DNA of 64,000 nt from a virus. Below, in pieces: positions 9,529-62,891 of this stretch (positions are counted from its first letter, which is position 1; the number at the start of each line of letters is the position of its first letter). The notes beneath the pieces were generated by a model. It searched no databases, was not told the origin of the DNA, and was given only the letters and a program-made list of their open reading frames with translations. The stretch lies in the IMG/VR virus record IMGVR_UViG_3300021339_000006, positions 1 to 64,000 of that record. One strand, 5' to 3'. Position numbers and translations under genes: made by a program.

Positions 9529-12068
9529 GCCTTCGATCCCTTTCCACGTTTCAATCCGTAACTGCCTTCCAATGAACGCACCAAGTCTCCGCGTCCGTCA
9601 CGTATCTCCGCGCTCATCTCTGCTTTGATCTGTCGGATTGCGATTTCAATCACACGCTGATTGCCATCAGTGCGCTCTGTCACCTCTGTGCGCGCCGAGG
9701 TAAAGTTGTTCACAGTCACCTTCACCTCACCACCGCCTAAACGATCGTTCGGAATAATGCTTCCGTTGGATGCAGGTGAGAACAGTTCCGGACCACGCTC
9801 ACCGACAAGGTAGTTCTTTCCTCGCCCGACTCCACCACCAGCAGCCTTTGCACCATCCAACGTCAGCTTCACACTCGTGATCGAGGATACGATTGTGGCT
9901 GTGGCAGCAATCACCGACGCCATCGCAAGCAGGTTGTATGGGTAAACCAATGAGGCTGCGCTGGCAATACCTTGGAAAATCTTGATCGTTGCGTCTGCAA
10001 CAGCAAACGCCTTCGACGCAATGAACATGGCTTTGTAAACGGCGTTCTGCTCTCCCGCGAAACCTTTGATGGCTTCCGAGAGTTGTCCGAACGCAGACTC
10101 GGAGGCGTTCAAAAGAATCTGCGTCTGCGCCAGTTGCAACTTCTTCAACCGATCGTTGTAGGCTTCAATGGCAGCCGTCTTCTGATCCTGCAAATCTTGA
10201 GTCAGTTTCAGTTCCTGAGCGTTTAACTCTTCGAGCATCTTGAGTTTTGATTTACCCTCTTCGATCTCCTTCATGTTGCCCATTGCCTGGCCCATAAAAG
10301 GATCGCTGCCCAAGTAGCTCTGCTCTGGTAATCCAATCTCCTTCAGTTTGGCTGACGCCTTTGCAGAGTCGAGGAATCGCTGTGCTCTGTCAGGATCGTC
10401 TTCCACCGTCATCATTTCGCCTACAGCCTTGCCCATTGCCGCTCCCCACATCTCAGTGGCGTCCGTCATTGCGCCCATCGACTCTACCACTGTCTCCTTC
10501 GCGTCAATGACTGTCTTGATCAGGCTGTCGTTGATTTCCCTGCGCGCATCTTTCAACAAGGAAAGCCACTCTTCCATCTTCTCCAATTCGATAAACTCAA
10601 AACCTAGGCTGAGGTTGGCTGTTTTGAGTGGAGTGATGTTGAGGATCTTTTTTACTTTCTCTGGGATGCTGTCGAGTAGGATGTTTACGCCATCAATCCA
10701 ATCATTGATCCCATCCGAAATGAAGTTGAGGAAACCGGTCATCGCGGTTTGCAACAAATTGAATGCCTTAATAAACGCCGACACCAGCGTCTCTGCCACC
10801 TTCAACCAAAGCATGGCAACCACCTTAGCCAGATCGCGCAGTCCTTCCCAAATCATCACCAACGTCTTCACCGCGCCTACCAGGATGGTGCCGAGGATGC
10901 GCGCAGTTTCTTTCCACGATTCGTTGGAAGCGGAGTTGAGCGCGCTGGTGTCGCGCAACATTCCATTCAGGCTGTCCAGCGCCGGACGCAAGCCCTCACC
11001 AATCGTGATCAGCAAGTCCTTGAACAGGTTGACTGTGATGGCTACTTGCGAGGAGAAAGACTTGAGCTGCTCGTTTGCAATTTTGTCGGTGGTGCCACCA
11101 GCATTGCGCAGTTCCTTTTCATACTCCCGAATCTTATCCGAGAATCCAATCAGCGACATTGTGGCAGACACCGACCGATCCTGGAAACCCATCAAAGTCA
11201 GGATCTGTCGTCTTTGCTCGACCGTTGCGCTACCTAACACCTTCTCCATCTGACCGATGATGTCGGCCATGTTGTTCATGTTACCCGCGCTGTCGTAAAC
11301 AGACACACCCAACTCATCAAACGCCTTCCGATTGGCAATCGACGACACTTGCAAATCACGCAACACAATGTTGAGCGCCTCACCAGCAGCTTCACCCTTC
11401 AAGCCCTGCTCCGCGAACACACCGAGGACAGCAACACCTTCCTCCACCTCTTTGTTTACCGAACGCAACGCAGCCGCAGCTTTGTTGGTCAACGCCTCGC
11501 TCAACTGTTCCACTGAAGCATTGGTTTGAATGTTGGCTTTTGTGATTACGTCAGCCACACGCTTCATGTTTTCAAAGTTCTGCGAAACGTCCTTGGTTCT
11601 CAGTCCCAAAGCCGACTGGGCATCAGCCAACAAGTCCGTTGCGCGCGCCATTTGAAAGTTACCTGCTGTTGCAAACTTTGTGAGCACCGGAAGTGCCTTC
11701 ATTGCCTCCGCCGCACTCAATCCAGCCGACGCCAAGAAGTAGTAGGACTTGGCCATGTCCTCTGCAGACTTTACCGACTCGCGGGCAATGGTGCGTGCAG
11801 TGTCGGACATCTGCTTCTTCATGTCCTCACTGATGTCACCCATGATGGAAAAAGCCTCCGTCAGGGCTTTGTCAAACTTGGCGAATTCATAAACAGCCGC
11901 AGTAGCGATGGCAGCAAGCGCGCCAACGATGGCAAGGCTGGCGCGCTTGACTGACTTCTCCGCAAGAGCTGTGCCGTTTACAAGGGATGTCGAATCAGCG
12001 GCGAGTCGGACAAATAACGTTCCCAACGAACCACCACCACCGACTGCACCTAAGCCTGGGACGTTCAA
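9525..12068 (-). CDS. Tail tape measure protein
   Basis: 847 aa. The N-terminal 370 residues match the TP901-type tape measure domain (KFDKALTEAFSIMGDIS, SAEDMAKSYYFLASAGLSA, LMGFQDRSVSATMSLIG). The centre contains hydrophobic helices, and the C-terminus carries GRGKNYLVGERGPELFSP, a motif common in tape measure tails. It sets tail length and is ejected with DNA. The start is TTG with AGGGAGG 5 nt upstream, overlapping the chaperone stop as TTGA. By the usual length rule the tail would be somewhat over 100 nm. Confidence 0.93.
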   Translation of the reverse strand: MNVPGLGAVGGGGSLGTLFVRLAADSTSLVNGTALAEKSVKRASLAIVGALAAIATAAVYEFAKFDKALTEAFSIMGDISEDMKKQMSDTARTIARESVKSAEDMAKSYYFLASAGLSAAEAMKALPVLTKFATAGNFQMARATDLLADAQSALGLRTKDVSQNFENMKRVADVITKANIQTNASVEQLSEALTNKAAAALRSVNKEVEEGVAVLGVFAEQGLKGEAAGEALNIVLRDLQVSSIANRKAFDELGVSVYDSAGNMNNMADIIGQMEKVLGSATVEQRRQILTLMGFQDRSVSATMSLIGFSDKIREYEKELRNAGGTTDKIANEQLKSFSSQVAITVNLFKDLLITIGEGLRPALDSLNGMLRDTSALNSASNESWKETARILGTILVGAVKTLVMIWEGLRDLAKVVAMLWLKVAETLVSAFIKAFNLLQTAMTGFLNFISDGINDWIDGVNILLDSIPEKVKKILNITPLKTANLSLGFEFIELEKMEEWLSLLKDARREINDSLIKTVIDAKETVVESMGAMTDATEMWGAAMGKAVGEMMTVEDDPDRAQRFLDSAKASAKLKEIGLPEQSYLGSDPFMGQAMGNMKEIEEGKSKLKMLEELNAQELKLTQDLQDQKTAAIEAYNDRLKKLQLAQTQILLNASESAFGQLSEAIKGFAGEQNAVYKAMFIASKAFAVADATIKIFQGIASAASLVYPYNLLAMASVIAATATIVSSITSVKLTLDGAKAAGGGVGRGKNYLVGERGPELFSPASNGSIIPNDRLGGGEVKVTVNNFTSARTEVTERTDGNQRVIEIAIRQIKAEMSAEIRDGRGDLVRSLEGSYGLKRGKGSKA

Positions 12069-37146: not shown

Positions 37147-38568
37147 TTACCATGCAGCGCCAGCCATCTTTTTCTTCTTGGCGATCTTATTGAAACCACC
37201 ACTGGCTGCATCGACTTGGTCATCATACTTGCCATGCGGAAAGTATTTCAGCTCGTCAATGAAGTCCTTCGTCCAGGCGCGCTTGAGGCAGTAGACGTTC
37301 CCGGCACCCATCTGCGATGCCAATGGATAAGCACGTGCTTCCTTGTCCCCTGTAGGGTGGAAGGCAATGACCTTGAACCCAGCCAGGTTGCGCACTGTGC
37401 TTTCCCCTGACTCCTTTCCTCCTGATCCTCCTTCGATCTCAATCACTACCGGCACCTCGTCCCCATCCTCCTCTGCCGTCTCTGCAATCCTCTCTTCCCG
37501 CTTAGTGGCGCCCCATTGTCCTCTGCGCACATCACATATCCAAAACTTACCCTTCTTGTCCACACCAATGCGGACGCCTGCTGACCAGTTGCCACCATCG
37601 GGCGTGCCTGCTTTGTCCCAGGAACGAACCATGCGCAGGAGCTTCGGTTCGTTGTCCTCATAAACAACCTTATCAGTCTCAAACATGCCACCACCCAGAG
37701 GCACAGGATCTTGGAGCACTTGACTGGCGTATCCGTATGCACCCAGTTCCTCCTTCAGCGTTTCCAACACTTCCCTTGGCATCCGCACAGGATCGAGCAG
37801 TCCATCCACGTAATACTTTTTGAGTCCTGGTGGTGAGATGCTTTTATGCAATTCCCCAGGCAGGCAGATATGTTTGATCTGTCCAGCCTTGCGCGCCAGT
37901 AATTCTCCACTGGGATCAGCCTGCCCTAGGCGTTGCTGCACCAGTATCAGTGGCGAGACCAGCTTGTCCACTTTGCGCGTTGGCAGTGTGGTAGTCATCC
38001 ATCTGTTAATGCGTTTGATTTCAACCTGCGAATAACTCTCCTCAGGATTGATCGGATCGTCCACCAGCTGGAAGTGTCCGTGATAACCTGTGATCGCACC
38101 TCCAACACCGACGCACAGGCGGGATCCCATCTGCGTATTGGTAAACAGCCCCTTGGTGTTTTCGTCCTCGCGCAATTGGATGTTGGGAAAGCAGGATTGG
38201 TATTTGTCTGACTGAACCAAATCCCGCGCCTTCAAGCTGTCCTTCATCGCCACCGCCTGCGCGTAGGATGCGCAAACAAACTTGGCACTTGGCAAGCGAG
38301 TCCAAACCCAAGCAGGAAATGCCTGGCTGACAATAGTGGACTTGGTGCTGCCAGGAGGAACGTTGATTACCAGATCGTAGGCTTTTGGTTCTCCAAGGAA
38401 CACGCGCTCTGCCATCACTTGCAACTCATCGCACAGGTATTCCACATGCCAATTCAGCACTGGCTCCTCTGCCACGATCACAGTCCAAAACTCCTTCAGG
38501 AACTCGTAGAAAGAATCCTTCACGATGGAAGCCAGGATCGTGAATTCGTTTACCTTTACGTCACTCAT
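37147..38568 (-). CDS. Terminase large subunit
   Basis: 473 aa packaging ATPase/nuclease. Walker A VPPGSTKST (about 69-77), Walker B FQLVDDP (about 166-172), coupling region LVQQRLGQADP, and nuclease acids in SWDKAGT (about 308), VIEIEGGSGG and the C-terminal KYDDQVDA. Cuts and pumps DNA through the portal. It overlaps the small subunit by 8 nt. Confidence 0.93.
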   Translation of the reverse strand: MSDVKVNEFTILASIVKDSFYEFLKEFWTVIVAEEPVLNWHVEYLCDELQVMAERVFLGEPKAYDLVINVPPGSTKSTIVSQAFPAWVWTRLPSAKFVCASYAQAVAMKDSLKARDLVQSDKYQSCFPNIQLREDENTKGLFTNTQMGSRLCVGVGGAITGYHGHFQLVDDPINPEESYSQVEIKRINRWMTTTLPTRKVDKLVSPLILVQQRLGQADPSGELLARKAGQIKHICLPGELHKSISPPGLKKYYVDGLLDPVRMPREVLETLKEELGAYGYASQVLQDPVPLGGGMFETDKVVYEDNEPKLLRMVRSWDKAGTPDGGNWSAGVRIGVDKKGKFWICDVRRGQWGATKREERIAETAEEDGDEVPVVIEIEGGSGGKESGESTVRNLAGFKVIAFHPTGDKEARAYPLASQMGAGNVYCLKRAWTKDFIDELKYFPHGKYDDQVDAASGGFNKIAKKKKMAGAAW

Positions 38569-39322
38569 CTGCTGTGTTGGTTAATTGTTTCATTTCCATT
38601 TCCACTACTGGTTTGGCTTTGTCTGCCGCTGCCTTCCTGCGCACTGCTTCAAGGATCTTTTTCCGCGTATCCAAATCCAAATCCAGTTCATCAATATCAA
38701 TCCCAGTGCCTGCAATGCCAGTGTGATCGACCTCAATCTTTTCCCCATATCCTCGATCCCTGTTCTGCGTTCTGTTCACAAACATCACTGCTGCGGGATT
38801 TCTCAACTGCACCAAATCCAAGAGTGCAGATTCGAAGAAGTTTTTCCTGTGCCACTGGACATCATCCAGCATTTGCCTGAAGTCAATGTCATGCTTCCAC
38901 ATTTCCAAACTGTTCCTGCTCACTCCTACCATTTTGCAGGAAGCGCTCACATCAAAGCACGTGCTCACCAATGCATGTATGAAAAGCTCCTGTTTGATTC
39001 GTTTGGATTTGCCATTCAGGATGGCGTCAATCTTCCCAGTATTGTCCTCCCAGAACTGAATATCCTCCCACACTTTCCTCGCATCAGGGCTTAGGCGTTC
39101 CAGGATATAGTCCTTCAGCTCAAGTCCATCGCCAGGCATCTTTCTGTTCTGATCTGCCAGCGTTTTCGCCAATTGTAATTCTGGATCAGCCTTGATCTGC
39201 TTCCTCAGCACCTGATGATTTCTGTCCAATGCCTTAGCGACATGGGAGATGTCCGCGTCTCTCAAGCACGCGTCATAGAACCGTAATATGAATTCCAACC
39301 CTTGGTGTCTCCTATGTGCCAT
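38561..39322 (-). CDS. Terminase small subunit-like DNA-binding protein
   Basis: 253 aa from the ATG at 39322. The N-terminus has an HTH-like stretch (ADISHVAKALDRNHQVLRKQ) and the middle a second (TCFDVSASCKMVGVSRNSLE MW as the recognition part), then FFESALLDLVQLRNPAAVMF, a region typical of small terminase proteins. The gene is directly upstream of the large subunit. Its start codon lies inside a 16-bp palindrome. Confidence 0.78.
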   Translation of the reverse strand: MAHRRHQGLEFILRFYDACLRDADISHVAKALDRNHQVLRKQIKADPELQLAKTLADQNRKMPGDGLELKDYILERLSPDARKVWEDIQFWEDNTGKIDAILNGKSKRIKQELFIHALVSTCFDVSASCKMVGVSRNSLEMWKHDIDFRQMLDDVQWHRKNFFESALLDLVQLRNPAAVMFVNRTQNRDRGYGEKIEVDHTGIAGTGIDIDELDLDLDTRKKILEAVRRKAAADKAKPVVEMEMKQLTNTADE

Positions 39323-39330
39323 ATGGCACA
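39315..39330. promoter_or_regulatory. 16-bp perfect palindrome at the small terminase start
   Basis: TGTGCCATATGGCACA, centred on CATATG, includes the start codon (39320-39322 as CAT). It could be a repressor site or an RNA hairpin that masks initiation. No SD is present upstream. Confidence 0.6.
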
Positions 39331-39370
39331 ATGGATACAAGGGAATCTTTAGGAAGCAAGAAAGTTCTTC

Positions 39371-40015
39371 TTACTTAGCGTAAGGCACAGGGTCAACCAT
39401 CCCTGCTATTGCGAATGCTTTCTTCCGAGGAACACAGCTTGCGCACTCCCCACAATGCGTCTCTCCACTCAAGTAACACGACCAAGTCAATTCCATTGGG
39501 ACGTTGAGCTTTTTCCCAGCCTTCACCACCTCCCATTTGTCCAAGTAATTGATAGGCATCAAAATCTGTGGACACTCTAATCCACAAGCGAATGGAAGTA
39601 GATTGTTAAATGCCTGAGTGAACTCTGGATAGTTGTCTGGATTTCCACCATGCGCAATGTTCCCATGTCCAATGTAAGGGATCCCATTTGTCATGCAGTA
39701 TCCAGCGGCCAACGAGATCAGGATCAGGTTGCGTGCGTTCACTCTCGACACTGCCCCGGAGAGTTCCTTGGCGGGCCGCCTTCCCTGGATCAATCCCGAC
39801 GTGACCACACCTCCAATTGCCACCTCAGCAATGTGGTGAGGCATTCCCATTGCTTTGGCGCAATCCTTGAGCGCCTTGTGCTCTTTCCACGTTGCACGGC
39901 ATCCATAGTCGATCATCAACAGCTCGACTTGGAAACCCTCATCTTTAAGGACTGCCGCAGCAACCACGCTGTCGAGTCCTCCACTGCAAAGAACTGCCAC
40001 TTTGTTTGATTTCAT
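39371..40015 (-). CDS. queC: 7-cyano-7-deazaguanine synthase
   Basis: 214 aa PP-loop ligase that converts CDG to preQ0 with ammonia and ATP. SGGLDSVVAAA (about 11-21) is the PP-loop; the zinc site is C-x7-C-x2-C-x2-C near the C-terminus (SCYLSGETHCGECASC). Length is that of a plain QueC with no fused amidotransferase. It lies apart from folE/queD/queE, just before terminase, with its own leader (copy 3 of the 20-bp repeat upstream). Confidence 0.93.
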   Translation of the reverse strand: MKSNKVAVLCSGGLDSVVAAAVLKDEGFQVELLMIDYGCRATWKEHKALKDCAKAMGMPHHIAEVAIGGVVTSGLIQGRRPAKELSGAVSRVNARNLILISLAAGYCMTNGIPYIGHGNIAHGGNPDNYPEFTQAFNNLLPFACGLECPQILMPINYLDKWEVVKAGKKLNVPMELTWSCYLSGETHCGECASCVPRKKAFAIAGMVDPVPYAK

Positions 40016-43404: not shown

Positions 43405-44310
43405 TTAACGCACAGGCCCTCCTGCCACCCACGTGTCGAATTCTGCCGGATCCTTGCACGCACGCACAAACGCCTCCAGCCCTTGCAGCGCAGCTTCCGC
43501 TTTGGGCCGCACTGTGCGCAACCAATGCACGTAATACCACGACACACCAATGCCCCTTTTATTCCGATGGAACGTGTCGTCATCACACGCAGTCCACGCT
43601 TTGAAGGGACTGTCCTGTGGCAGGTCCGTTGCCAAGTAACCACCCAGCGCAGTCTGACAACCCATCTTCACCTGCCCGATCATCTCGTCCTCATTCCAAC
43701 ACTCAATTCGATGGTTCGGAACGATCCCTTGGCAAAGGCGTCGCAATGGCATCACGTCCTCCTCAAGCACGCGCTCTCCTGTCGGGCACCAGGTGTCGAG
43801 AAACACACTATTGAACTCAACGCCGAAGTTCCGCGCATGGTGCAAGTATTGATAAATGTCTGCCTGAATCACCGACACCTTTCCTTTCGGAAGGTGTGCC
43901 CCTACAAGTTTGATGACATCCTTGCTGCGCTCTACTACCACAACCTTGGCAACGTTTGGATTCCGATCCAACAGCCCCACTGCCAATCCCAGTCCGAGCC
44001 CACCTACCAGAACCTTGCCACGCATCTTGGCAAGCTGTCGAGTGTGCTGTTCCACTTCTTGTGGCAACGAACTCATCCACGTGCCGGCGCCTGACTCCTT
44101 CAACGTGTGAACACCTATCGGCTCATCCAAAGTGAGGACAGTTGCCTTGAGTCCCATGAACAATGCGTTGCGCATCGACACAACAGGCAGGCGCGTGCCC
44201 GCTGCTTTGAACTCAACCGACACTGAGAACTTGCCACTCTTTCCCTCTGGGAGGTGGTAGGGAAGGGAAAAGATGCGGCCCTTGTGCTCGTATGTTGGGA
44301 ATGCCTTCAT
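43405..44310 (-). CDS. SAM-binding spermidine synthase/methyltransferase-like protein
   Basis: 301 aa. KVLVGGLGLGLAVGLLDRNP (about 99-118) is motif I of a Rossmann methyltransferase, VVVVERSKDVIKLV motif II, and VIQADIYQYL the acidic post-II strand. The spermidine-synthase-like group has this order. An N-terminal domain of about 95 residues precedes it. Substrate unknown; DNA, protein or small molecule are possible. ATGA overlap with the zinc/coiled-coil gene. Confidence 0.72.
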   Translation of the reverse strand: MKAFPTYEHKGRIFSLPYHLPEGKSGKFSVSVEFKAAGTRLPVVSMRNALFMGLKATVLTLDEPIGVHTLKESGAGTWMSSLPQEVEQHTRQLAKMRGKVLVGGLGLGLAVGLLDRNPNVAKVVVVERSKDVIKLVGAHLPKGKVSVIQADIYQYLHHARNFGVEFNSVFLDTWCPTGERVLEEDVMPLRRLCQGIVPNHRIECWNEDEMIGQVKMGCQTALGGYLATDLPQDSPFKAWTACDDDTFHRNKRGIGVSWYYVHWLRTVRPKAEAALQGLEAFVRACKDPAEFDTWVAGGPVR

Positions 44311-55962: not shown

Positions 55963-57441
55963 TCAGTTGCGTCCTAGTATCTCCCTCAAAAACAATTCTG
56001 CGTCGGTTGTAAACTTATCGGGCTTGTCAGGATGGTAAAAGCGACCTTGCTTGAATTTGACCTCGCGCTTCTGGAACCAATTCCCACCAACCGGCGCAAG
56101 TTCATACTCCACCTCGAGCGGCACAATCAACCACGGATACGCTTTGCGCAATTCCACCGTGACGGTGTGCTCCACAATCTCGAGGTAATTTTTCAGTTCC
56201 TTCTGATGCACGTCCCCAATCAAGCTGTCGTGAATCTGCCCTACAATCATGCTGCGCATCTTATACTTCCGCAGCAAGCGGTTGACTCGGATCAGTGTCC
56301 ACAACAGGCAATGGAAAGCCGAACCCTGCACTGGGTAGTTGGTAACCGCATTGCGTCCGAATGAACCGAACACACGAAACCCAGTAAGAAGGTCAAAGTA
56401 GCCTTTATCCAAGTAGGCGTGATACCAATCGCGCCTCCACTTGCCGTATTCCATGAAACGGACATTCCAAAAGTCGTTTTCAACTTCTTGAATGTGCTTC
56501 TCAAATGTGTGCTTGCGTGGCTTTTCGTCTGGGTCGCAGGCGCCCAGTTCTTTGATCCCTTGCGTGGACTTGAGCCATCCTTTGAGGGACATGCCTCCCG
56601 GTGCGGTCAGCTTGCCCTTATCTATCCACTCCCACAGTGCCTTGGCGCAGGCAACGTAGTAGTCGCCATAAAACTGAGGGAACACAAATTTGTTCTTTGC
56701 GCCATAGCGCGCGTCCTTACTCACATCGTGCGGCTCGAGGCAATAAATCTGCGCCGCCATATCTCGATGCATGTCCTTACCTGGCGTGGTGATATAGGAA
56801 ATGAAGTTCCTATCGTGGTGGTAGCACGCGCTCACACCGACCTCGATACCTTTGAAATCATTCTCCACCAGCAAGTGACCTTTGCTTGCGATAAACAAAC
56901 TGCGGATGATTTCAGCGATCTCCTTATCGCGCACTGGAAAGTTTTGGAAGTTTGGGCTGTTGCTGCTGGAGCGGTAGGTCTTGACCGTGTGCAGATTAAA
57001 GAAGGGATGCAGTCTTCCATCCACAGTCTCACGCTCAATCCCAGTAAGGAATGTCCCTAGCGCCTTGTCATACTTCTGAAACCGAATCAACTTGGGAATG
57101 AAAGGATGGTCGATCTTTTGCAGCGCCTCTTCATCCGTCGAAGGCTTCCCGGACTCTGTTTCATCCGTCACTGCATAGTCCAGCTCTGTATGGAAGATGG
57201 CCGAGATTTGATCCCGCGCAGTCAAGCTGGCTTTAGGGCCAAAACGCCGACGCCACAGTTTCCAAATCCTGTCTTCCTCAATCTCCTGACGCACCTTGCG
57301 CAGCTTGTCCTGAATGTCGCTCTTGGTGCGCTGCAAACGCGGCACGTCAATCCTGATCCCATTGCGCTCGATCCGGGAAAGCTCAATCAGTCCGTTGTGA
57401 AGCAGCGCGTAACCCTCCTGCCTAATCGCATCAATCTTCAA
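55963..57441 (-). CDS. PolA-family DNA polymerase (no exonuclease domain)
   Basis: 492 aa from a TTG at 57441 with AAGGAG 7 nt upstream, overlapping the UDG-exonuclease stop by 11 nt. Motif A LLVENDFKGIEVGVSACYHH, motif B RYGAKNKFVFPQFYGDYYV, motif C GQIHDSLIGDV. It has thumb, palm and fingers only; proofreading is on the separate upstream protein. ATG starts are absent near the SD, which supports the TTG. Confidence 0.88.
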   Translation of the reverse strand: MKIDAIRQEGYALLHNGLIELSRIERNGIRIDVPRLQRTKSDIQDKLRKVRQEIEEDRIWKLWRRRFGPKASLTARDQISAIFHTELDYAVTDETESGKPSTDEEALQKIDHPFIPKLIRFQKYDKALGTFLTGIERETVDGRLHPFFNLHTVKTYRSSSNSPNFQNFPVRDKEIAEIIRSLFIASKGHLLVENDFKGIEVGVSACYHHDRNFISYITTPGKDMHRDMAAQIYCLEPHDVSKDARYGAKNKFVFPQFYGDYYVACAKALWEWIDKGKLTAPGGMSLKGWLKSTQGIKELGACDPDEKPRKHTFEKHIQEVENDFWNVRFMEYGKWRRDWYHAYLDKGYFDLLTGFRVFGSFGRNAVTNYPVQGSAFHCLLWTLIRVNRLLRKYKMRSMIVGQIHDSLIGDVHQKELKNYLEIVEHTVTVELRKAYPWLIVPLEVEYELAPVGGNWFQKREVKFKQGRFYHPDKPDKFTTDAELFLREILGRN

Positions 57442-58618
57442 AGCCCATCTCCTTTCTTTGCACCATCGCGAGTCGGTATTCCAGGATGGCATCCATACCG
57501 CCATACAGGAGCAAGTCTTTGAGGTTCGCCTCGCGGATTCGATTGTAGTGCGTCGATTCGTCAGACTTGAGATAAGATTCAACGTGCGCGTCGTAAATTG
57601 GAACGCCCAGCTTTACCAACGCCTGGAACTTGAGCGAACAAATGCCTTCCCTATTGTCCAAGCAATGGGAAGCCAACATCGTGTCCCATCCCCAGCGCCG
57701 GACGCCGTGGTTGAACATACGCAGCGTCCACCGCTCTTCCATCTTGAGGTTGGAGGCGATCTTTCTGGTGCGTTTGGAACTCAGGAACTTTCCCGTCGCT
57801 GCAATAGCTTTTCCCCACCACGGATAGGACACAGTGCGCTTGCCGTTGCTGACTGCGCAGCTAAAAATCTTCGCTTCCGGCCAGTCCGCTTTAAGGCAGT
57901 TGCATTCGTAATCCACTGCGGCGAAGCCACCAGCAGCATCAATCTCTTCCAACGCCTCAACCACCGCGTCCTCTTCGAACAGCAATTCAATTTTGCTTTC
58001 CCAATTCGGTTGCTTCGGTGGCGACTCTTCAATGTCAAAAGCCATTTCGAGATGGTCGGCGAACAGCCGGTCCATCAATTTGTTTTTCATCCGCAACAGG
58101 TAGGAAGGATGATACGTCGGGACAACCCAATGTTTCTCAAGTGGGATTTTCCAACCGACCCATCGGCCCATCTCTCCTATATCTGTTTTCCAATATGGAC
58201 CGATCACACTGACCAACGCCGACCGGCCCAGCGTAATGATCACGCGCGGTTCGTAAGTCTCGATTGCTTGCAACAGGTTTGGCCGGCAGTAACCGATCTG
58301 CTTCGCGTCTGGCGTTGCATTGTTGGGAGGACGACAGATGAGTGCGTTTGTTACCCAACACTCTTTGTCCAACTTCACCCCCAGACTGCCCAGCGTGTCG
58401 CGTAGGTATTTGCCAGCAAGTCCAACAAATGGACGCCCTTCCTGATCCTCTGTGGCTCCGGGAGCCTCTCCAACCACCATGACCCTCGCCGTTCCTCGTC
58501 CAGCCACCACCATCTTAGGACTGCGACAGGTCTTGAAGAGGCCACAGGAACCACACTTGGGCAGGAATCCCTCTGGCTTTTGACTATGGACTGCGCTTGA
58601 TGCAAAGAATCCAGTCAC
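57431..58618 (-). CDS. Uracil-DNA glycosylase fused to 3'-5' exonuclease
   Basis: 395 aa, GTG start (GTGA overlap). Residues 20-200: family-4-type UDG with Fe-S cysteines CGSCGLFKTC (22-31) and later Cys near ALICRPPNN, the GEAPG motif (50-54) and HPSYLLR. Residues 215-390: a DnaQ/DEDD-like exonuclease (AVDYECNCLKADW, ASNLKMEERWTLRMF, WDTMLASHCLD, then GGMDAILEYRLA). The polymerase follows immediately, so this protein probably proofreads and removes uracil at the fork. Confidence 0.82.
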   Translation of the reverse strand: MTGFFASSAVHSQKPEGFLPKCGSCGLFKTCRSPKMVVAGRGTARVMVVGEAPGATEDQEGRPFVGLAGKYLRDTLGSLGVKLDKECWVTNALICRPPNNATPDAKQIGYCRPNLLQAIETYEPRVIITLGRSALVSVIGPYWKTDIGEMGRWVGWKIPLEKHWVVPTYHPSYLLRMKNKLMDRLFADHLEMAFDIEESPPKQPNWESKIELLFEEDAVVEALEEIDAAGGFAAVDYECNCLKADWPEAKIFSCAVSNGKRTVSYPWWGKAIAATGKFLSSKRTRKIASNLKMEERWTLRMFNHGVRRWGWDTMLASHCLDNREGICSLKFQALVKLGVPIYDAHVESYLKSDESTHYNRIREANLKDLLLYGGMDAILEYRLAMVQRKEMGFED

Positions 58619-59703
58619 TCGTTGTTACCCTGTTTCTTCTTCTTGGATTTCTTCTCAGGCTGCTCTTCCTCCTCGTCCTCGTCGCCGTCCTCTTCCACTT
58701 CCTTCGCTGCGCTGAGGACAGTGGTGTAGGTCCAGTGACCACCCTTAGCCGAGAGCTTGTCGTTTTGAATCACGGCCTCGGAGTAGTTCTCCGAAATGTG
58801 CTGGAGCAATTCCGGCGAGATCAGGAAGGTCATAGGCGGCCCTTCGTAGGCAACCTTACTCACCTCTTTATACCATCCGAAAACGCCCTCGCCCTTGATC
58901 AGCATCCGCCCGTCCACCAAGTTGACTTGGACTTGCGTCTGCCCCGACGCATCCGCCGCAAACACTGCCGCGCGATCGCTTGCCTTCACTGCCCCTTTCG
59001 GCAGGACAATCTTGTGCCCTTTGACCTTCAGCAAATGATCCAACTCTGGATAGCTCTCAGCATAGCGCCGGCAGGAATAAATCAACCCATCGGCGTTCTT
59101 GAAGTGAATCCAGGACTTGGTCAGGGACATCTTGTTCATCCCCAGCGAGGTAATGTCCTTCAGCGCAGTGCCGCGCACCAACACCGAGTCCTCCAATCCA
59201 ATGTCCACCTTGCAACGCAAGATTTGGAAGTTGTCGCACGCTTCCACGTAGTCCGGATGGAGGTGAATGCAGCACAGCAAGAACTTGCTTTCGTCACCGC
59301 TCACGCAAAGGCTCACCAGCCCTACGGCTTCCGTGAAGTCTGCGGGCAGCTTTTTCCACTTCTCAGGCTGCTCAACGCGATCAATCGGAAGGAAAATTTC
59401 TGCGTCCTTCGTGATCCCAAACCCTTTCTTCTTACCGCGGAACTCCAACTCGCCCCTGTCGTTCTCGCGCACCTTGAGGAATGGATCGTCCAACTTCTGC
59501 AAGATGTCCAGCAGCGCAGTTGCCTGCACAGCACCAGTGATGGTTACTCCGATCTCCTTTCGACAAGCCACCTCGTCGTTGAAGGTCATCACGTTTCCAT
59601 CCTGGAAGACAAAACAGGAGGACTGCTCGATGAACTCCCTGGGTGATAACCCAGAGCGAACGGCCAACAGATCATTTAGGAAGTCTTCTCTTTTTATGTT
59701 CAT
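58615..59703 (-). CDS. DNA polymerase sliding clamp (beta-type)
   Basis: 362 aa, with KREDFLNDLLAVRSGLSPRE at the start and DALNK-like clamp repeats (KVRENDRGELEFRGKKKG; TALKDITSLGMNKMSLTKSW; ISPELLQHISENYSEAVIQN), the order of phage DnaN-type clamps. A C-terminal tail (EEDGDEDEEEEQPEKKSKKK) is acidic then Lys-rich. Holds polymerase on DNA. A-rich leader before ATG. Confidence 0.78.
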   Translation of the reverse strand: MNIKREDFLNDLLAVRSGLSPREFIEQSSCFVFQDGNVMTFNDEVACRKEIGVTITGAVQATALLDILQKLDDPFLKVRENDRGELEFRGKKKGFGITKDAEIFLPIDRVEQPEKWKKLPADFTEAVGLVSLCVSGDESKFLLCCIHLHPDYVEACDNFQILRCKVDIGLEDSVLVRGTALKDITSLGMNKMSLTKSWIHFKNADGLIYSCRRYAESYPELDHLLKVKGHKIVLPKGAVKASDRAAVFAADASGQTQVQVNLVDGRMLIKGEGVFGWYKEVSKVAYEGPPMTFLISPELLQHISENYSEAVIQNDKLSAKGGHWTYTTVLSAAKEVEEDGDEDEEEEQPEKKSKKKKQGNNE

Positions 59704-59962
59704 TGGTTTTGGTCTTTTCGGAAGCTGCTTTCTTTGCCGGCTTTTCCCGATGCTTCTTTAAGAATCGAAAGAGTGATTCAATTTGCTCATCCGTAAGCTT
59801 GTTTTTGCGCTTGAGGTATTTCCTCAGTCGATCGCCAGACCAACCCACCCAATGCGGAAAGATGTGCATTTGATGGAACGTTGGCATGACATGGGACTTG
59901 CGCTGCGGGATCAGGAATTCGGGTGACGTTGTGCCTCCTCCGCCTGAAAAATAAACTCTCAT
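59672..59962 (-). CDS. Small basic hypothetical protein
   Basis: 96 aa, ATGA overlap with dpdA, 32-nt overlap with the clamp gene. RVYFSGGGGTTSPEFLIPQR at the start and a Lys-rich end (KHREKPAKKAASEKTKTNEH). Function unknown; may belong to the modification operon. Confidence 0.5.
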   Translation of the reverse strand: MRVYFSGGGGTTSPEFLIPQRKSHVMPTFHQMHIFPHWVGWSGDRLRKYLKRKNKLTDEQIESLFRFLKKHREKPAKKAASEKTKTNEHKKRRLPK

Positions 59963-61035
59963 AGAATCTCAAAGGACTTCCTGATCCAAGTTCTCTGCGC
60001 GTCTCCAACTCCATCCCGAATCGCCAACGGCCACGGCCACTTGGGCCGGCTCTCTTCAAGGTCTTTGAGGTAATGGAGATTCACCAGTGAACGCGCACGG
60101 AAGTTGGTGCTGACTCCATACGGCTCCTCTTCCGTCGAATTCAACTCAACACCCAGATGTCCCAACCACCGGTCCGTGTCCTCTTTAATCGAAAGCTTGG
60201 CGTTGTCATAATGCTTGTCCTTGCACTGCCTGGGATGCCGACCTTTTGTAGTCCACGCAAAACGATTCATCCGCTTTGTCACCTTACGCGAAACGTTGAC
60301 CTGCATGGGAGGCACATCGTATCGGAAGCCAGTTCTCTTGTCCCACCTGGGCACGAGAATCCAGCCGTAGGATGCAAGTTTGATCCACGTTGCCGAGTCC
60401 ACCGACCACCACGGCCAGCGGCACATCAGCTTCCAAGAGGTCATCGCAAAGCCGTGTGTCTTAATGACGGGCAAGAATCCATTGGACTCTGGACAGAGCT
60501 TTGTGAACAACGTGTCTGCCCAACGCATGTAAACGCCCACGCCGATTGAATGACCTAAGCCACCGATCCCAATCAGATCGTAACGCCCAGCCTCAAGGTA
60601 ACGATCCACATACTTCAAGTTCGTCCCTGCATGAATCACAGGAATGGGTTGGACACCGTGCTCTTCCTCAAAGAATCGCTGCACCTCCCAAGTCAGGTCT
60701 GGATTCTGAATTACGTCCACCGTGGTGATCAGGACACCAGTGCCTTCCAGCTTCTTTACAAACACTGCAAACTTGTCGCAGTAGGCTCGGAACGCAGAAC
60801 CTTTGGACAAGTCGAAGAACGAGTAATCCCCTTTGCCTCGAGGGATCGCCGCAGGTTCAAGACTGCGTCCGTGCTTCCCGATCTTCTCCTTGTGCCCTAC
60901 ATGGAGGTTGAACAACGAGTAAGCGCCCGAGTCAACAAACATGGACTGGCAGGACAGATCGCCGTCCTCGATCTCTGTCCAAGAACGGCTGTCTCGGATC
61001 ATCCGTCGGTTAATCTCCTTCAGCGATTCACTCAT
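59959..61035 (-). CDS. dpdA: DpdA-like 7-deazaguanine DNA transglycosylase
   Basis: 358 aa from the ATG at 61035 (ATGA overlap). A TGT-fold enzyme: SMFVDSGAYSLFN (about 31-43), VLITTVDVIQN, VIHAGTNLKYVDRYLEAGRY, DLIGIGGLGHSIGVG (the G-G-L motif) and FLPVIKTHGFAMTSWKL. DpdA enzymes swap guanine in DNA for preQ0 or a derivative. Linked to folE, queE and queD directly upstream, and to queC elsewhere. Confidence 0.85.
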   Translation of the reverse strand: MSESLKEINRRMIRDSRSWTEIEDGDLSCQSMFVDSGAYSLFNLHVGHKEKIGKHGRSLEPAAIPRGKGDYSFFDLSKGSAFRAYCDKFAVFVKKLEGTGVLITTVDVIQNPDLTWEVQRFFEEEHGVQPIPVIHAGTNLKYVDRYLEAGRYDLIGIGGLGHSIGVGVYMRWADTLFTKLCPESNGFLPVIKTHGFAMTSWKLMCRWPWWSVDSATWIKLASYGWILVPRWDKRTGFRYDVPPMQVNVSRKVTKRMNRFAWTTKGRHPRQCKDKHYDNAKLSIKEDTDRWLGHLGVELNSTEEEPYGVSTNFRARSLVNLHYLKDLEESRPKWPWPLAIRDGVGDAQRTWIRKSFEIL

Positions 61036-61241
61036 TGCTGTAGGTGCTCCTTTGCTTGCGCAACCACGCACCCGTGCTTGTGTCGAACTTGAGGAGGTGT
61101 CTTGCCAGTGTCATTGCAGTGGACACAATACCACTCAACCGAAAGGATTGTGTCCAACATAGACATCCCTCTGCGTGCTGGACGCTCCTTGATAGCAAGG
61201 TCAACCATCTCACTTAAAAGCTGCTTGGTGCTTTTACTCAT
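61032..61241 (-). CDS. Small Cys/His protein
   Basis: 69 aa. VEWYCVHCNDTGKTPPQVRH, then KHGCVVAQ: CxxC plus later H/C, zinc-binding-like. It overlaps folE at its start (8 nt) and dpdA at its end (ATGA). Unknown. Confidence 0.55.
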   Translation of the reverse strand: MSKSTKQLLSEMVDLAIKERPARRGMSMLDTILSVEWYCVHCNDTGKTPPQVRHKHGCVVAQAKEHLQQ

Positions 61242-61827
61242 TGTTGGACTTTGCCAATTCGATCAGCTTGTAGAATTCAGCACGCACCTCTGCCTTCAAA
61301 AACGTGCCGCGCAACTGGGAGGTGACCATTACCGCTTTTTGTTTCTGCACGCCTCGGCACGCCATGCATTGGTGCTTTGCCTGAATCACAACACCAACAC
61401 CGGCCGGCTTGAGATGCTTCGACATTGCGTCCGCAATCTCCACTGTCATCTTTTCCTGAATCTGCAACCGCCGCGCAAAGCAATCCACCAAACGCGCCAT
61501 CTTGGACAGTCCCACCACACGTGACTTCCTCTTCGATGGCAGATAGGCAATGTGCGCGTAGCCAACAAACGGAAGCAGATGGTGCTCGCATACAGAACTG
61601 AATTCGATCCACGAGCAGTTAATCATTTGATCGTAACGGCCCGCAGCGAAATCACGCTCCAGTATTTCCTCTGGACGCTGGCAGTAGCCTAGCGTCATCT
61701 CGTCCCATGCACGCACCACCCTGTCGGGCGTGTCCTGGAGGCCGTCCCTGTCAACGTCCTCACCGACATAGCTGAGCAAGGTGCGAATCGCCTCTCGCGC
61801 CATCACTTCTGTTGCCTGTTCCTTCAT
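61234..61827 (-). CDS. folE: GTP cyclohydrolase I
   Basis: 197 aa. Converts GTP to dihydroneopterin triphosphate, the first step toward preQ0. SSVCEHHLLPFVGYAHIAYL (about 77-96) gives the zinc Cys/His and QCMACRGVQ (about 151-159) the second Cys; RLQIQEKMTVEIADAM is typical. Full length for the family. Confidence 0.95.
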   Translation of the reverse strand: MKEQATEVMAREAIRTLLSYVGEDVDRDGLQDTPDRVVRAWDEMTLGYCQRPEEILERDFAAGRYDQMINCSWIEFSSVCEHHLLPFVGYAHIAYLPSKRKSRVVGLSKMARLVDCFARRLQIQEKMTVEIADAMSKHLKPAGVGVVIQAKHQCMACRGVQKQKAVMVTSQLRGTFLKAEVRAEFYKLIELAKSNNE

Positions 61828-62529
61828 TCAATAGCCTTTTGCTGGATCGCCTCCCAATGGGACTGGCGTCCTGCTCCTACTATCTGCGAGGTCCACGGCA
61901 TACAACTTGTGAAGCTGCCATCCAGCGCGCAGTGGCTGCCCTCGATAGCACTGCACCACAGCCTCGGAGATCGCGTTCAGCACTGCCGGATTCTTCCGCT
62001 GACTCCACTCTGGGTGCAACCAAACCGAATTGGGAATCGGATCAGTCCCGAACGCCTCCTCCAACGCCTTCAGGTAGAAATCAATGTCTGCTGGCGTTTC
62101 GATGATCAGCTTGAACTCATCTGCCTGCTGGATGTTCTCAACCAATGGCATTTTCCACTTCTTGGGTGAGAGGGTTATGAAATCGAAATGACCCTTCATC
62201 GGAAACGATCCACTCGTCTCCAAATGAACCTGCATGAAAGAGGTGCGCAGTTCGTGCGTCAATTCTGTGAGGTCATGAACAGTCGGCTCGCCTCCAGTAA
62301 TGACAACAAAATCAACGATGGGATCCGCGCACGCCTCGACACGAATCTCCTCTGCCGACATGCGCTTGATGTCCTTGGGCACATGGTCTGGATGCCAAGT
62401 GCCTGCGCTGTCGCACCAAGGGCATTGCACTGGGCAGCCGAATGTCCTCAGGAAATAGGCTGGGCGTCCCATGTGGGTGCCCTCACCTTGGAACGTCCTG
62501 AATCGCTCGTGTATTGGATACAACTTCAT
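61828..62529 (-). CDS. queE: 7-carboxy-7-deazaguanine synthase
   Basis: 233 aa radical SAM enzyme from the ATG at 62529 (ATGA overlap with queD). RTFQGEGTHMGRPAYFLR, the cluster motif FGCPVQCPWCDS (C-x3-C-x2-C, about 30-40), and VVITGGEPTVHD. It contracts carboxytetrahydropterin to CDG. Folded cap region similar to phage QueE. Confidence 0.92.
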   Translation of the reverse strand: MKLYPIHERFRTFQGEGTHMGRPAYFLRTFGCPVQCPWCDSAGTWHPDHVPKDIKRMSAEEIRVEACADPIVDFVVITGGEPTVHDLTELTHELRTSFMQVHLETSGSFPMKGHFDFITLSPKKWKMPLVENIQQADEFKLIIETPADIDFYLKALEEAFGTDPIPNSVWLHPEWSQRKNPAVLNAISEAVVQCYRGQPLRAGWQLHKLYAVDLADSRSRTPVPLGGDPAKGY

Positions 62530-62891
62530 GGTTGGTAAATGCAAGACGAGGTGCAAGTTTCGTCAATCTCGATGGCAACGAGGCTGGGCAAGCTGTCCTT
62601 GAGTCGCTCGTAAATCCAACGCGCTAATTCCTCGCTGGTTGGATTCTCAAGGCCAGTGGTCTCGTTGAGATAGTGGTGATCCAACCTCTCCTCAACAAAC
62701 GACTTCACCTCCTTGGAGATGGTGCCGAAGTCCATCAGCATTCCCTGCTTCGGCCCATAGAAGATAAGCTTCTCACCCTGCACCACAACGCGCATCACCC
62801 ACGAGTGTCCGTGCAATCGTTGGCACTTTCCATCATGGTGAGGCAGCTTGTGGGCTGCCTCGAATTTGAATTCCTTTTTGAGTGTAAACAT
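62526..62891 (-). CDS. queD: 6-carboxytetrahydropterin synthase
   Basis: 121 aa from the ATG at 62891. FKFEAAHKLPHHDGKCQRLH then GHSW: zinc His triad and the catalytic Cys. LMDFGTISKEVKSFVEERLD, HHYLN and NPTSEELARWIYERL complete the PTPS/QueD pattern. A 9-bp hairpin stands between its leader and ATG (62906-62932). Confidence 0.94.
   Translation of the reverse strand: MFTLKKEFKFEAAHKLPHHDGKCQRLHGHSWVMRVVVQGEKLIFYGPKQGMLMDFGTISKEVKSFVEERLDHHYLNETTGLENPTSEELARWIYERLKDSLPSLVAIEIDETCTSSCIYQP

Follow-up and report, generated by a model that had tools for sequence, protein, structure and literature searches.

A predicted 7-deazaguanine DNA modification cassette in a phage genome, with a distant stand-alone QueC that groups with the Gat-QueC lineage

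The 7-deazaguanine that a phage places in its DNA is usually predicted from gene content, and a stand-alone QueC without an amidotransferase domain is read as a sign of 2′-deoxy-preQ0 (dPreQ0). How far does this reading carry when QueC itself departs from the canonical form? The question is raised by the IMG/VR virus record IMGVR_UViG_3300021339_000006, from an uncultured bacterial virus, which holds queD, queE, folE and dpdA in one cassette and queC elsewhere. Positions 1 to 64,000 of this 76,797-base record (the window) were analyzed, and the remainder of the record was also searched. The final 126 bases repeat positions 16-141, and on the strength of this 126 bp terminal repeat the 76.8 kb genome is taken as complete. 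By motif and tree, the QueC sits with the Gat-QueC lineage, in which QueC is fused to an amidotransferase (Gat) domain, but without the Gat part, and not with the ordinary plain form. We nevertheless retain dPreQ0 as the best single prediction for the modified base, with a probability of roughly 0.6.

The cassette and its transglycosylase

Matches to Pfam, NCBIfam and PHROG models bear out the preliminary description of this DNA, which had placed folE, queD, queE and dpdA at 59959-62891 and had claimed the full gene set from GTP to preQ0 together with DpdA. All four genes are present there on the minus strand. The queC gene, described as lying 20 kb away before the terminase, was found beside a small-terminase-like gene and a clear large terminase gene.

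62526-62891, minus: queD, 6-carboxytetrahydropterin synthase; ATG at 62891; TIGR03367 110.3 bits (cut-off 89.25); Pfam PTPS E 2.2e-37
61828-62529, minus: queE, 7-carboxy-7-deazaguanine synthase with radical SAM CX3CX2C motif; phrog_2076 E 9.8e-34; Radical_SAM above cut-off; its ATG (62529) overlaps the queD stop (ATGA)
61234-61827, minus: folE, GTP cyclohydrolase I; PF01227 E 6.4e-67; TIGR00063 above cut-off; begins right after the queE stop
59959-61035, minus: dpdA, DNA guanine transglycosylase; phrog_887 E 3.2e-27; its ATG (61035) overlaps the stop of a 69-codon open reading frame (ORF)
39371-40015, minus: queC, stand-alone; PF06508 141.8 bits (cut-off 22); about 20 kb from the cassette

From queD through the polymerase genes, each start/stop codon pair on the minus strand overlaps or abuts. 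Thus queD-queE-folE-dpdA is a tightly coupled operon (59959-62891), continuing into genes for the sliding clamp and DNA polymerase.

DpdA had no Pfam or NCBIfam match, its family call coming from PHROG only, and a profile built from two DpdAs found no sequence relative in the PDB. A structural model of the protein, built on 40 sequences (mean predicted local distance difference test score, pLDDT, 76.2), was compared with the PDB. Foldseek returned nothing at E ≤ 0.001, and there was no tRNA-guanine transglycosylase (TGT) among the 50 rows listed. When VIA-align was applied to Foldseek's 1000 candidates, TGTs occupied all 50 top rows (Z 8.9-10.5), the best match being human QTRT1 with queuine; DpdA therefore models as a TGT fold. 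Residues D35, D107, H135, HGF194-196, D213 and S214 are invariant in the 40 phage DpdAs aligned (40/40), and presumably include the TGT catalytic aspartates. H194 of the HGF motif is equivalent to residue 196 of the BRET DpdA. The histidine at position 196 is reported to be conserved in DpdA and missing from DpdA2 (Hutinet 2019, PMC6884629).

Lineage and substrate pocket of QueC

Canonical QueCs, Cluster 1 of PF06508, carry the motifs YGQRH and YPDC, and most Gat-QueCs carry YG[CS]xA and PDN. The present QueC has YGCRA and PDN. Its sequence reads YGCRATWKE in place of the canonical YxQxHxxE, and NPDN in place of YPDC, matching the YGxxA plus PDN pattern of the Gat-QueC domain. The fused class II glutamine amidotransferase domain that otherwise defines Gat-QueC is missing. 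PHROG likewise favours Gat-QueC (phrog_10428, 169.6 bits) over QueC (phrog_1550, 135.5 bits), and the best matches in the databases come from the QueC part of phage Gat-QueCs, with identities of about 38-42% and none higher than 42%. The preliminary description had called this QueC the plain form. It was right that no amidotransferase is fused to it, but the motifs and the tree are those of the Gat-QueC lineage, and the YPDC tyrosine has been lost.

Viral QueCs were gathered in scans seeded with Gat-lineage and PDN sequences, which gave the best 80 of 111 and the best 80 of 368 matches. Among the best 80 of the 111 viral loci, 78 were Gat-fused and 2 were cut off at the contig start; in the second scan 70 of 79 new loci were examined, near-duplicates being left out. 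Of the 105 distinct viral QueC domains examined, 80 are fused with PDN, 2 are fused with a variant motif, 17 are stand-alone with PDC and 1 (L197) is stand-alone with PDT, while the remaining 5 are truncated where their contigs begin. The present phage breaks a rule that holds among these domains, that Gat-fused QueCs have PDN and stand-alone QueCs have PDC, and its QueC is the only stand-alone viral PDN form among those examined. A search of IMG/VR for close relatives of this QueC found none and returned one Gat-fused locus; the literature listings, abstracts and excerpts consulted contained no account of a phage whose Gat-lineage QueC stands alone. At L197 (4563-6816) there is a stand-alone QueC with YPDT for YPDC, 40% identical to the present one and contiguous with QueD, QueE and FolE.

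Two maximum-likelihood trees place QueC, on a long branch, with the PDN set, which comprises the Gat-fused domains and five cellular stand-alone QueCs, at support values of 100/96 and 100/92. For the first tree, L164, near-copies (80% or more) and three rows truncated by the beginning of their contig were removed, which reduced 113 rows to 69; the second used 24 hand-picked Gat rows and 6 more. Constraining QueC to the canonical set cost 8 log units and was not rejected (p-AU, from the approximately unbiased test, 0.38). A grouping with L197 was tried and rejected (p 0.0245). In the first tree QueC falls beside the Gat-fused clade and not inside it, the fused rows alone being supported at 98/97; in the second, the branching order of QueC and the Gat-fused clade has support of 51/34. 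The notion that QueC is simply a Gat-QueC minus Gat, which was also tried, is thus not shown, as it lacks support from the trees.

QueC combines conserved positions with changes, among them losses in the substrate pocket. The SGGxDS motif, Y37, R95-N96, K160, the CY motif and the zinc cysteines are intact. N93 replaces the proline of VPxRN (Pro in 106 of 112 other QueCs), and changes were found at four sites that are fixed or nearly so in Gat-fused sequences: 86 (E in 78/78), 91 (W in 77/78), 108 (E in 77/78) and 120 (N in 78/78). The reading frame is intact. In view of its confidently predicted fold (pLDDT 90.7), for which the best PDB matches are QueC 3bl5 and Cap9 9nto, the gene does not look decayed.

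The predicted base and its alternatives

If the enzymes have the activities that their sequences suggest, FolE, QueD and QueE would convert GTP to 7-carboxy-7-deazaguanine (CDG), and QueC would amidate and dehydrate CDG to preQ0, using ATP and free ammonia. DpdA, as a base exchanger of the TGT fold, would then replace guanine by preQ0 in phage DNA, producing dPreQ0 at part of the G positions. This base would be expected to shield phage DNA against host restriction enzymes, and the coupling of the cassette to the clamp and polymerase genes would allow modification capacity to arrive with replication. That some 7-deazaguanine modification of the phage DNA takes place is, in our judgment, highly probable.

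The choice of dPreQ0 follows from two lines of published work. In CAjan and Rosebush, dPreQ0 amounts to 28-32% of G and goes with the minimal gene set, and loss of CAjan dpdA abolishes both dPreQ0 and restriction resistance (Hutinet 2019, PMC6884629). The Gat-QueC of phage 9g did not rescue tRNA queuosine in an Escherichia coli queC mutant, and supported DpdA-dependent dG+ there (PMC6884629). Since it supports DpdA in the absence of E. coli queC, a Gat-lineage QueC can supply preQ0 to DpdA, and, taken with the minimal set of CAjan and Rosebush, this keeps dPreQ0 the likeliest base. A conversion of preQ0 further along the pathway was also looked for. The preliminary description had seen no QueF or ArcS, and neither came to light when the search was extended over the complete genome. 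In the whole record the QueF model matched FolE alone, at 15.8 bits and thus under its cut-off of 27.3; the ArcS domain DUF5591 had no match in the record, with a control that was positive in only 5 of 14 genomes. The preQ0 transporter family Vut_1 (YhhQ) was likewise without a match (controls positive in 11/14 genomes). The whole record holds exactly one QueC. The earlier step from a plain QueC to 2′-deoxy-preQ0 therefore still gives the best single guess, although it is weakened by a QueC that is of the Gat lineage and has no YPDC tyrosine.

CAjan (Seuratvirus), like the Rosebush-group mycobacteriophages a dPreQ0 phage of the second group of Hutinet 2019, has the same folE-dpdA-clamp-polymerase order as the present phage, but its QueC is of the YPDC type and 45.6% identical to that of E. 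coli, whereas the present one is of the Gat lineage. In Sabella (Rosebushvirus), as a further point of resemblance, the cassette adjoins the terminase. Phage 9g/Nonagvirus and other Queuovirinae with Gat-QueC and dG+ share with the present phage the lineage of the QueC domain, the DpdA His196 and the folE-dpdA-clamp-polymerase order; unlike theirs, the present QueC has no Gat and is changed at residues invariant in the Gat lineage.

Several observations weigh against dPreQ0. The dPreQ0 precedents CAjan and Sabella have a canonical QueC inside the cassette, in contrast to the Gat-lineage, pocket-diverged QueC found here 20 kb away. On TIGR00364 this QueC scores 106.9 against a cut-off of 150.3 (ten comparison proteins, 130.7-196.8 bits), and QueE scores under all of the NCBIfam QueE equivalog cut-offs. 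N125 replaces the tyrosine of YPDC/N, a position where 111 of the 112 other QueCs carry Tyr or Phe; in E. coli QueC, Y131A is inactive and Y131F partly active (PMC13329287). It is a guess that Y129, four residues beyond N125 and mostly E or R in the others, might stand in for the lost tyrosine.

The base could instead be dG+ (archaeosine), if the Gat-lineage QueC added free or host-derived ammonia to preQ0 and so replaced the lost Gat. Motifs and tree place QueC with Gat-QueC, and the 9g Gat-QueC yields dG+ with DpdA (PMC6884629), but no Gat domain was found anywhere in the genome: a profile from six phage Gat domains matched neither the window nor the remainder of the record, and GATase_6 had no match either (control positive in 14/14 genomes). 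Given also the changes at residues 86, 91, 108 and 120, and a QueC that is not shown to fall inside the fused clade, we consider dG+ unlikely. The same judgment applies to a QueC that is slowed or halts midway, leaving phage DNA with 2′-deoxy-7-amido-7-deazaguanine (dADG) or dCDG, whose bases are intermediates on the way to preQ0. The loss of the YPDC tyrosine and the VPxRN proline would fit such an enzyme, and dADG is already known from phage DNA (PMC8306585); on the other side, the excerpted literature gave no precedent for ADG building up with a variant QueC, and the E. coli Y131A enzyme is reported as inactive (PMC13329287).

QueC may also have left the pathway, through decay or through repurposing such as the protein deazaguanylation of Cap9 (type IV CBASS) and QatC (Qat), with preQ0 coming from the host QueC. 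The gene lies apart from the cassette, in the company of packaging genes, and residues of the pocket are gone; YPDC can vanish on repurposing, as it has in QatC (PMC13329287). QueC shares the ATP-pyrophosphatase fold with both proteins, and Cap9 is among its nearest solved structures. In three relatives (G003-G005), moreover, QueD, QueE, FolE and DpdA are accompanied by no QueC that could be found. Decay is opposed by the intact frame, the intact zinc and ATP motifs and the confidently modelled fold; repurposing is opposed by the YxDC that Cap9 retains (PMC13329287) and by a score of 23.5 bits on the QatC model NF041925, far under its cut-off of 280. We regard a QueC outside the pathway as improbable, if less so than either of the two products just discussed. 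Somewhat more room should be left for a QueC that is no longer a preQ0 synthase and whose remodelled pocket performs a different 7-deazaguanine chemistry, for example stopping at ADG, acting on the base after its insertion by DpdA, or attaching a deazaguanine to protein as Cap9 and QatC do, although this too is doubtful. If it were true, phage DNA would carry a base other than dPreQ0, or the role of QueC would lie outside DNA modification. Taken together, the readings of dG+, of products of the ADG type and of a QueC no longer in the pathway retain an appreciable minority share of the probability. By far the least likely is that the cassette serves tRNA queuosine metabolism and not DNA modification. 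Its four biosynthesis enzymes are common to the queuosine pathway, but no QueF was found above cut-off (no search was made for QueA, QueG or QueH), the transglycosylase is recognized by phage PHROGs and by none of the tRNA TGT models of Pfam or NCBIfam, and its gene is coupled to those for the clamp and polymerase.

Neighbouring genes, relatives and the history of QueC

Retaining dPreQ0 as the likeliest product, we turn to the setting of the cassette and of queC, whose neighbours are as follows.

61032-61241, minus: ORF of 69 amino acids with CxxC...HxHxxC, between folE and dpdA and overlapping both
59672-59962, minus: ORF of 96 amino acids between dpdA and the clamp gene; a stretch of 33-37 amino acids is kept in relatives (tblastn, 55-67% identity)
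58615-59703, minus: sliding clamp (DNA polymerase processivity factor), in the cassette's operon; phrog_947 E 3.7e-24
57431-58618, minus: phage DNA polymerase, N-terminal part; within the single 885 amino acid ORF of L004 (56% identity)
55963-57582, minus: DNA polymerase, C-terminal part; 50-68% identical to its counterparts in four close relatives (L004, L008, L009 and L010)
38561-39340 (first ATG 39322), minus: probable small terminase subunit, downstream of queC; weak match to phrog_4044 (E 0.0057)
37147-38568, minus: large terminase subunit; phrog_38 E 7.7e-89

The polymerase (55963-58618) is split over two overlapping ORFs in different frames, both of which are spanned by the one ORF of L004. 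We take the N-terminal part to be uracil-DNA glycosylase-like plus exonuclease and the C-terminal part to be of the PolA type; neither has a family call. Pfam, NCBIfam and PHROG scans gave no family for the 69-residue ORF, bar one sub-cut-off chance row in NCBIfam. We gave up the idea that DpdA has a conserved zinc partner in this protein, since 0 of 68 related loci show such a motif in an ORF between folE and dpdA. A methyltransferase-like protein (43405-44310, phrog_15480 E 7e-15) is encoded between queC and the replication genes and is no evident base modifier. No tRNA genes were found in the 64-kb window.

Relatives, all uncultured, were gathered by DpdA and polymerase searches of IMG/VR. 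DpdA was matched in 9, and QueC in 4, of the 19 records searched; G003-G005 gave an identical DpdA match. The order helicase, helix-turn-helix, QueD, QueE, FolE, DpdA, clamp, polymerase is common to the present phage, G012 (L004) and, across contig ends, G001, and this recurrence in related viruses argues that it is not due to chance. The order folE-dpdA-clamp-polymerase is also found, in some cases with small ORFs between, in the Queuovirinae BRET, HdSG1, R31B, R7M and CAjan. In G002 (78 kb) the helicase adjoins the clamp, and no DpdA or QueC was found; a cassette missing from this site marks it as an optional module. In G018, queC, queD, queE, folE and dpdA form a single run.

The closest comparison is with a sister phage, G001 (IMGVR_UViG_3300021090_001018; 67.4 kb, with overlapping ends), which is largely collinear with the present one and 63% identical to it in the large terminase, 63% in QueD, 54% in QueE, 63% in FolE and 52% in DpdA. 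G001 encodes a canonical QueC with 33% identity to the present one, its gene flanked on one side by a RusA-like gene and on the other by homologues of ORFs 45116/46136; queC of G010 is placed in the same way. No QueC was found beside the G001 terminase, and the small-terminase-like gene is conserved in both G001 and G002. A remnant of QueC at the site used by the sister phages was considered and dropped, as four canonical QueCs matched only queC itself (E < 0.001, whole record). With a canonical QueC elsewhere in G001 and no trace of one at that site here, the simplest history would be that QueC was both replaced and moved, a stand-alone relative of Gat-QueC having supplanted the canonical version still present in the sister phage. 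Exchange of QueC and Gat-QueC is not new in itself, being described inside the syntenic cassette of Seuratvirus and Nonagvirus (PMC8310023); the point of difference here is the relocated, stand-alone Gat-lineage form. The cassette is ordinary for its class, and QueC is the new variant.

Other relatives vary in other ways. The QueDs of L004 (7961-8317) and L010 (71-427) are 26% identical to that of the present phage, and their QueE, FolE and DpdA 48-58%; QueD, too, seems to have been exchanged in these two. L018, L019 and L020 (G003-G005; 61, 45 and 29 kb) have QueD, QueE, FolE and DpdA but no QueC that was found, and may insert CDG, use host preQ0 or have a QueC off the record. L016 contains a QueD-like match (10104-10520) between two polymerase halves. 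In Microbacterium phage Megan (L006, 670-2543), a pair of neighbouring genes, each bearing the annotation queuine tRNA-ribosyltransferase, lies ahead of QueC (with a Gat domain), QueD, QueE, FolE and the terminase.

With a QueC this odd and apparently relocated, the gene list makes the exact base look more certain than it is. The phage offers a natural test of what a Gat domain contributes, and what the tyrosine of YPDC does, since a Gat-lineage QueC without Gat may make preQ0, G+ or neither. For these phages more generally, the comparisons suggest that single pathway enzymes, QueC here and QueD elsewhere, may be swapped or relocated, while dpdA, folE and queE would remain coupled to the replication genes.

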